A stretch of DNA of 64,000 nucleotides. It comes from Alphaproteobacteria bacterium (GTDB lineage Bacteria; Pseudomonadota; Alphaproteobacteria; Caulobacterales; Aquidulcibacteraceae). Position 1 is the stretch's first letter; each line of letters starts with the position of its first letter. The translations under genes were made by a program, and so were the position numbers. The stretch is taken from NCBI GenBank assembly GCA_027485915.1, contig JAIXQA010000022.1, forward strand, positions 124,001-188,000, written 5' to 3'. The notes beneath the pieces were generated by a model. It did not search any database. It saw nothing but the letters and a program-made list of their open reading frames with translations, and was not told the DNA's origin. Below are positions 60,001 to 62,513 of the stretch, one piece after another.

Positions 60001-60191
60001 GGAAGATCCTGATCAAAACTGTCTCTAGCATAAGGATCGTTGGGGGAGGGGGCAAGGCAAGGCCTGCACAGCAGAGTGGATCGCGTGCAGGTCTCTTTCT
60101 GGTGATTTGCAAAGTTGAATTCACCTGCCTATGCCAAAGGTAAAATCGCGCCCAGATTGGGCGCTGGGCGTTGACGGGGATGGAGCACGAC

Positions 60192-60941
60192 GTGGCGAAA
60201 TTATTGGTTGGGAACTGGAAAATGAATGGTTTGAAGGCTGCTTTATACGAAGCGGGCCTGATTGCTGCGGCCGCCAAAGCTGCTCAGAGCCAGTCGGTCC
60301 AATTGGCTATTTGCCCGCCCGCGACCTTGTTGGCTAGTCTAAGTGAGGCGACGATTGGCACCGGGCTTTTGACAGGTGCACAAGATTGTCATGAAAAAGT
60401 TTCCGGTGCTCATACGGGGGATATCTCTGCCACCATGGTCAAGGATGCGGGGGCGCACTTCGTGATCGTCGGCCATTCTGAGCGTCGTGCCGATCATCAT
60501 GAGACCAGTGCAGTGGTTTGTTTGAAAGCGCAGGCTGCGTTGGCCGCAGGTTTGGTGCCAATTGTCTGCGTCGGCGAAACACGCGCTGAGCGCGAGGCTG
60601 GACAAGCTGAAGCTGTGGTTCTGGCCCAAGTTGACGGGTCGGTGCCAGAGACTTTCCCAGAAGGCGGTTTGGTGATTGCCTATGAGCCGGTTTGGGCAAT
60701 TGGGACTGGTCTTGTGCCCAGTACTGGCGATGTTTTGGCCATGCATGGTGCCATTCATCAAAGGCTAGTTGCCAGATTTGGACCGTTGGGGGCCAGCGTC
60801 CCGTTACTCTATGGTGGCTCGGTCAACGGCACCAATGCGGCCGACTTGCTCCATCTGGATCATGTAGACGGGGCTTTGGTTGGGGGGGCAAGCCTGAAAG
60901 CAGACGGATTTCTGAAAATTTTGCATGCAATTCAAGAATGA
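60192..60941 (+). CDS. tpiA: Triosephosphate isomerase
   Basis: Interconverts dihydroxyacetone phosphate and glyceraldehyde 3-phosphate. I choose the GTG at 60192 ([18 protein letters not shown]), which has GGAG 6 nt upstream and yields the standard 249 aa; the track start is a TTG at 60171. The catalytic residues are Lys in GNWKMNG, His in [11 protein letters not shown] and Glu in [13 protein letters not shown]. The phosphate-binding [12 protein letters not shown] and ALVGGASLK complete the barrel. Divergent from ppiD across about 190 nt. Confidence 0.97.
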
Positions 60942-61012: not shown

Positions 61013-61993
61013 TTGGACAAGCAAAGACTCGCAGCAGCGACCGTCCTGATCTATGATCCAGTGCGCGGCAATATGCTGATGACACGTTCAGTTTTGCATG
61101 GGATTGGGTTCCGCCGCATTGAGGGGATGACCTCATTGCGAGAACTGACTCGTCGACTGCGCGACGTAGATATTTCTCTTTTGGTAATCGAAGCCACGGA
61201 AAATCACGCTGAAGTGGTTGATTTATTGCGCGCTCAACGCCTCGGCGAATTAGGTGTCAATCCATTCATTCCCGTCATTGCAACGCTGTGGGCGGGCTCA
61301 ACTGATTTGGTTGCAGACCTGATGAATGTTGGATGTGACGATGTGCTGTTGCGGCCATTCTCGCAAATTCAAACCCTAGAGCGCGTGCGCGCCATCATTT
61401 CAGCCCGCAAACAATTTGTTGTGACCTCGGACTATGTCGGGCCAGATCGTGGTCGCTCATCGAGCAATCAGATGGCACCAGAGACATTTGATCCGCCAAA
61501 TACGCTGCGCGACCGCGTTTTAATGAGCAATTTTGATCCAGTCACGCAGTCAGAGATTCTTGCGACCGCGCGCCGCAAAGTCGACCAAGATCGCCTTGCA
61601 AAGCTTGCCCGTCGCATTGCCATGGCCGCAGAAGTCATCATCCAAGCCCAAGGGCGTGGCGACGCCAATGCCGGCTTTGTCGTGGATTTGCTCGAAAGCT
61701 CGGCTGAGCTTGTGCGCGCTGCCAAGCGGCTGGATATTGATGAAGTCCAAGAAATTGCCATGGTGCTGGAGAATGTGGCAGCCCGTACCAGCGCGCCTGG
61801 CCCAGAACGCGTAGAAAATGCCAATTTAACCCGACAACTCGCGCTGGCGCTTTATGTGGCTTATGCGGTTGAGGGGGGCGAAGCCTTTAAGGCGGAATTG
61901 GAGACGACTTTGGACAAGGTTCGAGGGCGTTTGGACAAGGCAAAAGAGCGGGCAAAACGTCGCCATACGCTGGCGCTGTCGTTGGTCTCTTGA
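61013..61993 (+). CDS. Degenerate receiver-domain (pseudo-response-regulator) protein
   Basis: A 326-aa cytoplasmic protein. Residues about 10-130 have the CheY topology: ATVLIYDPVRGNMLMTRSVLHGIGF, VDISLLVIEATENHAEVVDLLRAQ, NPFIPVIATLWAG, MNVGCDDVLLRPF. The phospho-acceptor Asp is replaced by Glu (VIEA), only one acidic residue is at the end of strand 1, and the conserved Lys is Arg (LRPF). The C-terminal 180 residues are helical (DQDRLAKLARRIAMAAEVIIQAQGRG...EELETTLDKVRGRLDKAKERAKRR), with no DNA-binding domain. The start is a TTG at 61013 after AAGGGG. Function unknown. Confidence 0.75.
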   Translation: MDKQRLAAATVLIYDPVRGNMLMTRSVLHGIGFRRIEGMTSLRELTRRLRDVDISLLVIEATENHAEVVDLLRAQRLGELGVNPFIPVIATLWAGSTDLVADLMNVGCDDVLLRPFSQIQTLERVRAIISARKQFVVTSDYVGPDRGRSSSNQMAPETFDPPNTLRDRVLMSNFDPVTQSEILATARRKVDQDRLAKLARRIAMAAEVIIQAQGRGDANAGFVVDLLESSAELVRAAKRLDIDEVQEIAMVLENVAARTSAPGPERVENANLTRQLALALYVAYAVEGGEAFKAELETTLDKVRGRLDKAKERAKRRHTLALSLVS

Positions 61994-62072: not shown

Positions 62073-62513
62073 ATGTTCATCCAAGCTGTTCTCATTCTTC
62101 ACCTGCTGATCTGTTTGGCGCTGATTGGTGCCATTTTGCTGCAGCGCTCGGAGGGCGGTGGGGCTTTGGGTATGGGCGGTGGGCCATCGTCTATGATGTC
62201 CGGTCGCTCGGCCGCTAACTTCATGACACGCACCACAACCTTGTTGGGTGCAGCCTTTTTGGTCACCAGCGTTACCCTGACCATTATGAATAAATCGGCC
62301 TCTAAGCCTGCTGATTCTTTGATGCAAGACGGCAGCACGAAGGATGGCTTACCGACAAAGGGTATTGACCTGTCTGTCCCTGCTGCGCCTGCCAACGCAA
62401 TCGCACCAGCCCCCGTTGGCGGTATCCCAGCTTCCGCGCCCGCTGCAGTTGAGCCTGCGCCGCTGTTCCCCGCGGCACCAACCAATGCCGCGGCACCAGC
62501 TGAGAAAAAATAA
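62073..62513 (+). CDS. secG: Preprotein translocase subunit SecG
   Basis: A 146-aa accessory subunit of the SecYEG channel. The first membrane helix is AVLILHLLICLALIGAILLQ, followed by RSEGGGALGMGGGPSSMMSGRSAANFMTRTTTLLGAAFLVTSVTLTIM with its second helix. The Ala/Pro-rich tail (PAAPANAIAPAPVGG...) is longer than in E. coli (110 aa) and common in alphaproteobacteria. The secG-pyrG neighbourhood is standard for the group. The ATG at 62073 has a weak upstream signal. Confidence 0.95.
   Translation: MFIQAVLILHLLICLALIGAILLQRSEGGGALGMGGGPSSMMSGRSAANFMTRTTTLLGAAFLVTSVTLTIMNKSASKPADSLMQDGSTKDGLPTKGIDLSVPAAPANAIAPAPVGGIPASAPAAVEPAPLFPAAPTNAAAPAEKK

Follow-up and report, generated by a model that had tools for sequence, protein, structure and literature searches.

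We find that a gene lying between tpiA and secG-pyrG in an alphaproteobacterial genome encodes what is probably an orphan response regulator of atypical, aspartate-less type, from the lineage that joins a receiver to an arginine-rich region (REC-ARR), one that would act independently of phosphorylation and would use a helical domain as its output. Judged by sequence comparison, the phosphorylatable Asp, the second metal ligand and the catalytic Lys are all missing from its receiver. Purifying selection on the gene is strong, and in many alphaproteobacterial lineages it has remained between tpiA and secG. The window (the whole stretch of DNA that was analysed, 64,000 nucleotides) comes from a genome of the Aquidulcibacter lineage; the nearest records are Aquidulcibacter paucihalophilus, other Aquidulcibacter, Phycosocius and Pseudaquidulcibacter. 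The gene and its neighbors are arranged in the window as follows.

61013..61993, forward strand: the whole pseudo-receiver gene, 326 amino acids with a TTG start (open reading frame call and orthologs)
60171..60941, forward strand: tpiA, the conserved upstream neighbor
62073..62513, forward strand: secG, the conserved downstream neighbor
from 62586: pyrG, following secG

No other in-frame start lies 5' of the first match, and in alignments the close relatives share this TTG. We retrieved 80 loci with two peptide seeds, both of which excluded the column of Glu60 and the GPDR part of the linker motif discussed below, and one of which included the column of Arg114. These loci come from Aquidulcibacter, Robiginitomaculum, Hyphobacterium, Rhizomicrobium and further alphaproteobacterial lineages. 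At 65 of them tpiA lies directly upstream and at 63 secG or pyrG lies downstream (both at 56, at least one at 72), so the position that the first-pass annotation had given for the gene, between tpiA and secG-pyrG, is seen well beyond the window. The conserved arrangement of tpiA, pseudo-receiver gene and secG contains no kinase gene, a scan for promoters and terminators gives no signal exceeding that of shuffles, and the viral contigs searched hold no relative of the 326-amino-acid protein.

Three features define the N-terminal part of the protein.

61037..61405, forward strand: degenerate receiver domain, residues 9-131 (profile match to CheY and KdpE, AlphaFold2 model, Foldseek, conservation)
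61190..61192, forward strand: codon of Glu60, at the phospho-acceptor position (translation, conservation, profile alignment)
61352..61354, forward strand: codon of Arg114, at the position of the conserved Lys (translation, conservation, profile alignment)

The sequence reads LLVIEATEN around the phospho-site and DDVLLRPFS around the Lys site. Asp15 and Thr91 are retained, while Pro16 occupies the second acidic site, Glu60 the place of the phospho-Asp and Arg114 that of the Lys. A pseudo-receiver has been defined as a receiver that lacks at least one of the five conserved residues DD, D, T and K (PMC12632262), and by this definition the present domain is one, with three of the five catalytic positions altered (Pro16, Glu60 and Arg114). 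When the profile of the family (A2) is compared with solved receivers, it matches CheY2 with E=6e-12 and KdpE with E=5.6e-11, and in the alignment Glu60 falls on the phospho-Asp, Arg114 on the Lys, and Asp15 with Pro16 on the acidic pair. The AlphaFold2 model (pLDDT 89.9, pTM 0.83) has a receiver fold at residues 9-131, which Foldseek matches to CheY with a TM score of 0.87 on the CheY side. The first-pass annotation had proposed a pseudo-receiver with Glu for the phospho-Asp and Arg for the Lys, and had named structure prediction as a check; the profile alignment and the conservation of both residues agree with that proposal, and the predicted structure does contain the receiver fold. Taken singly, the protein has zero matches in Pfam and weak receiver matches elsewhere, NCBIfam included, which reflect the receiver part alone; individual matches to Response_reg (E<=0.1) are found for 45 of 48 family members, the window's protein not being among them.

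How strongly these positions are held becomes clear in the set of sequences linked to the locus (79 sequences, counting the window and near-copies, three of them from a class survey). Of these, 77 have Glu and 2 have Asp at site 60, and every one of the 79 has Arg at site 114; Asp15, Thr91 and Trp93 are each retained in 78, and R124, R132, R146 and N163 are present throughout. With an acidic residue at site 60 and Arg114 in every linked sequence, and with Asp15, Thr91 and Trp93 nearly invariant, we are looking at a constrained site and not at drift. A tree of 84 representatives less than 85% identical, of which 54 are linked to tpiA and/or secG and 30 are not, places all the linked ones on one side of a single branch (SH-aLRT 88). 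Here the pair of residues is Glu/Arg in 52 and Asp/Arg in 2, and among the 30 representatives at other loci Asp/Lys occurs in 14. This answers the call of the first-pass annotation for a survey of the Asp-to-Glu change, which extends to 52 of the 54 divergent linked representatives. Close relatives of the window's protein carry Glu/Arg, with the exception of Phycosocius spiralis (Asp/Arg), and Asp/Lys appears only in distant homologs at other loci. The natural reading is that Asp and Lys were lost within the linked group; the tree falls short of proving it because its root was not inferred and several of its rows are long.

Asp at site 60 is restricted, among linked orthologs, to Phycosocius spiralis (L038) and one further locus (L115), both with Arg at site 114. 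In these two, phosphorylation is in principle conceivable, although Arg114 and Pro16 stay. Some genomes carry several full-length copies of the wider family away from tpiA, some in tandem and often with Asp/Lys (L116, L119 and genomes G334, G245, G338 and G415). In the class survey, 174 of a sample of 385 genomes have a match at 1e-10. Many of these matches cover just the receiver and fall on other REC-ARR proteins; reading the table, we put the number of genomes with a match close to full length at roughly 54.

It is tempting to take Glu60 as a mimic of the phosphorylated state, which would leave the receiver permanently active and bound to its partner in the absence of any signal. This was the model of the first-pass annotation, and its appeal is easy to see: Glu is present in nearly all of the linked representatives, Thr91 is retained, and Glu, the residue that most commonly replaces Asp in aspartate-less receivers, does mimic phosphate in some regulators (PMC4395418, PMC12632262). 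However, the mimicry model depends on Thr and Lys as partners (PMC12632262), and the Lys is replaced by Arg in 79/79. The K-3 aromatic residue of Y-T coupling is absent as well (Leu, Val or Ile in 79/79), and position K+2 is Phe in 74 of the 79 linked sequences, a residue that in CheY biases the protein to inactive states (PMC12632262). Together, the Arg, the missing aromatic and the Phe count against simple mimicry. In two orthologs the site has gone back to Asp with nothing else changed, and an Asp-to-Glu change by itself is often insufficient (PMC4395418). Finally, the natural Glu of CleD can be replaced by Ala with function kept (PMC5677366), and thus Glu60 need not be a phospho-mimic either. 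Constitutive activity through Glu mimicry therefore goes unsupported, and we consider the model improbable. In the phosphorylation-independent regulator that we favor, Glu60, Asp15 and Arg114 would instead be joined in an unchanging network of charges, keeping the receiver in a single conformation, and the protein would stand outside histidine kinase control.

Could the altered active site simply mark a response regulator in decay, with no function left? The catalytic residues are gone, and the gene is missing from many sister genera; 30 genomes without it were compared, all from the same family or order, and in 16 of these secG lies directly after tpiA, within 300 bases. Codon alignments against four relatives of the Aquidulcibacter lineage and Phycosocius bacilliformis say otherwise. 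They give dN/dS of 0.013-0.038 for the pseudo-receiver gene, 0.059-0.114 for tpiA and 0.011-0.016 for pyrG, that is, values two to eight times lower than for tpiA and near those for pyrG, these ratios being rough because dS is near or above 1. This result refutes decay, to which we give practically no credence; the reading frames are also open in the listed orthologs, and residues are invariant across large distances. Low dN/dS on the one hand and tpiA-secG junctions without the gene on the other mean that a lineage can lose the pseudo-receiver, and that where it is present it is tightly constrained. In one related family an unrelated open reading frame of about 313-340 amino acids directly follows tpiA, in the place of the pseudo-receiver (L145, L148, L157, L161 and L163).

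Just past the receiver lies a c-di-GMP-type motif that the first-pass annotation overlooked. Two features make up this linker.

61406..61450, forward strand: Arg132 and FVVTSDYVGPDR, residues 132-146, one copy of the Cle arginine-rich motif (as defined in PMC5677366; conserved in 111/111)
61487..61510, forward strand: F-D-P-P-N-T-L-R, residues 159-166, at the position of the second copy (Asn163 in 79/79 linked sequences and 32/32 others)

The segment right after the receiver thus has the form R132-x-x-FVVTSDYVGPDR. In the Cle proteins of Caulobacter, the arginine-rich motif [YF]xGP[DE][RK]R stands in tandem after the receiver and binds c-di-GMP (PMC5677366). Scored as [YF]xGPx[RK], the first copy is found in all 111 family members (79 linked and 32 others) and a second arginine-rich copy in none. 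At its position we read F-x-P-P-N-x-L-[KR] as a putative diverged second copy. The window's own first copy is YVGPDRG, with Gly147 where the motif has its second Arg; this residue is Gly or Ala in 16/16 members of the window's lineage and Arg in most other linked orthologs. The relation to the REC-ARR lineage rests on the receiver and this one short motif.

The linker raises the possibility that the protein, like the Cle proteins, functions as a c-di-GMP effector, in which binding at the linker would alter the receiver face or the helical domain. The YxGPDR copy is invariant and correctly placed with its flanking Arg132, and in CleD the R156A mutation of the corresponding region abolishes c-di-GMP binding (PMC5677366). 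GGDEF proteins occur in 49/49 genomes that carry the gene, a weak point since such proteins are common; it fits a c-di-GMP role and does not test it. Set against this are the missing second copy and the residue at site 104, where spacing places the alpha4 Arg of Cle proteins (R111 in CleA, R113 in CleD; PMC5677366) and where 79/79 linked sequences have Val, Ile, Met or Leu. In CleD, loss of the second-copy Arg costs about 5-fold and loss of the alpha4 Arg about 3-fold (PMC5677366). Moreover, the second Arg of motif 1 that the window's lineage lacks may be the critical Arg of CleD. Since a single chain contains one half of the tandem motif, the complete site may be assembled from the two chains of a dimer. 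Binding of c-di-GMP by the window's protein is thus possible, and that it is a working effector strikes us as unlikely, though with a real chance of being right.

CleA and CleD bind FliM, and a similar role in regulating the flagellar motor might be proposed for the tpiA-secG protein given its REC-ARR kinship and the presence of FliM in 44 of 49 gene-carrying genomes. Yet FliM and FliG are both absent from five genomes, one of which is 99% complete, and in these the gene is intact and has all of its motifs. The flagellar motor is therefore not the sole target, and we hold a role as a FliM-binding motor regulator to be very improbable. These genomes are small (1.8-2.5 Mb) and have the pseudo-receiver at tpiA-secG (L065, L069, L070, L079 and, in G297, locus L111); flagella have apparently been lost in this freshwater alphaproteobacterial group.

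The remainder of the protein is a domain of its own.

61535..61984, forward strand: C-terminal helical domain, residues 175-324, five helices (structure models; no known relative)

The bundle is modelled with a pLDDT of 83.7. Comparison with Pfam and the PDB, by sequence and by fold, returns no credible relative, and in hhalign comparisons the domain does not resemble the helical C-termini of related REC-ARR proteins. The helical C-terminus that had been called unique from the first reading thus keeps that description, now as a five-helix model. An HPt or CheA P1 identity is rejected because there is no conserved His: the commonest His column reaches 35/79, and HPt/P1 folds are matched only at E >0.3. 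Some REC-ARR proteins of about 300 amino acids do have a helical C-terminal region with an invariant His (alignment A4; L172, L182, L019, L020, L025 and L026). Two of these, L172 and L182, are from the window's own genome (contigs C61 and C57), and L019, L020 and L026 have Glu at the phospho-site with the Lys retained. The window's genome encodes five REC-ARR paralogs, four with the canonical Asp and Lys.

A 2025 review considers it a mystery how bacterial pseudo-receivers turn on and off (PMC12632262). For the regulator that we favor, switching, if any, would come from a ligand or partner bound at the linker (Arg132, YVGPDR, PPNxL), and the signal would pass to the helical domain, whose output may be dimerization or partner binding. 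A bolder version would make these proteins a new and deeply conserved class of regulators in Alphaproteobacteria. Dimerization through the new helical domain would complete the half c-di-GMP motif, which together with the phosphorylation-dead receiver would sense a nucleotide messenger and act on a non-flagellar housekeeping process; this we rate as rather doubtful. Relatives with Asp/Lys, Asp/Arg, Glu/Lys and Glu/Arg all occur naturally within a single architecture, and some of the genomes have flagella while others do not. Such a series makes it possible to test which part transmits the signal, be it receiver, linker motif or helical domain.

In the literature searched, which covers few subscription journals, we found no published description of a tpiA-secG pseudo-receiver gene or family, of its architecture, fixed locus or half motif, and no experiments on any family member. 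The broader class is already known, namely the aspartate-less receivers in which Glu is the commonest substitution (PMC4395418, PMC12632262). With them the tpiA-secG proteins share Glu for the phospho-Asp, the common exchange of Lys for Arg and the retained first acidic residue. That class, however, is a mixed one defined by loss, whereas the tpiA-secG proteins are orthologs that form a single family and have a linker motif, an output domain and a locus of their own. The likeness to Cle proteins is closer in layout: a receiver is followed by an arginine-rich region with [YF]xGP[DE][RK]R and a flanking Arg, and the C-terminal region beyond it varies in length, with Glu at the phospho-site as in CleD and with activity that is independent of phosphorylation in Cle proteins (PMC5677366) and would be so here. 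Unlike Cle proteins, the family has a single motif copy with FxPPNxL at the second, no alpha4 Arg, Arg for Lys, a bigger helical domain, members in genomes without flagella and a fixed tpiA-secG locus; since the two Cle features tested, the tandem motif and the alpha4 Arg, both failed, we do not class it among the Cle proteins. REC1 of ShkA in Caulobacter (PMC7010744), likened here by description, is likewise an alphaproteobacterial pseudo-receiver without phosphotransfer, and it senses c-di-GMP; unlike the tpiA-secG protein, it is part of a hybrid kinase and has its ligand site on the beta5-alpha5 face with Tyr338.
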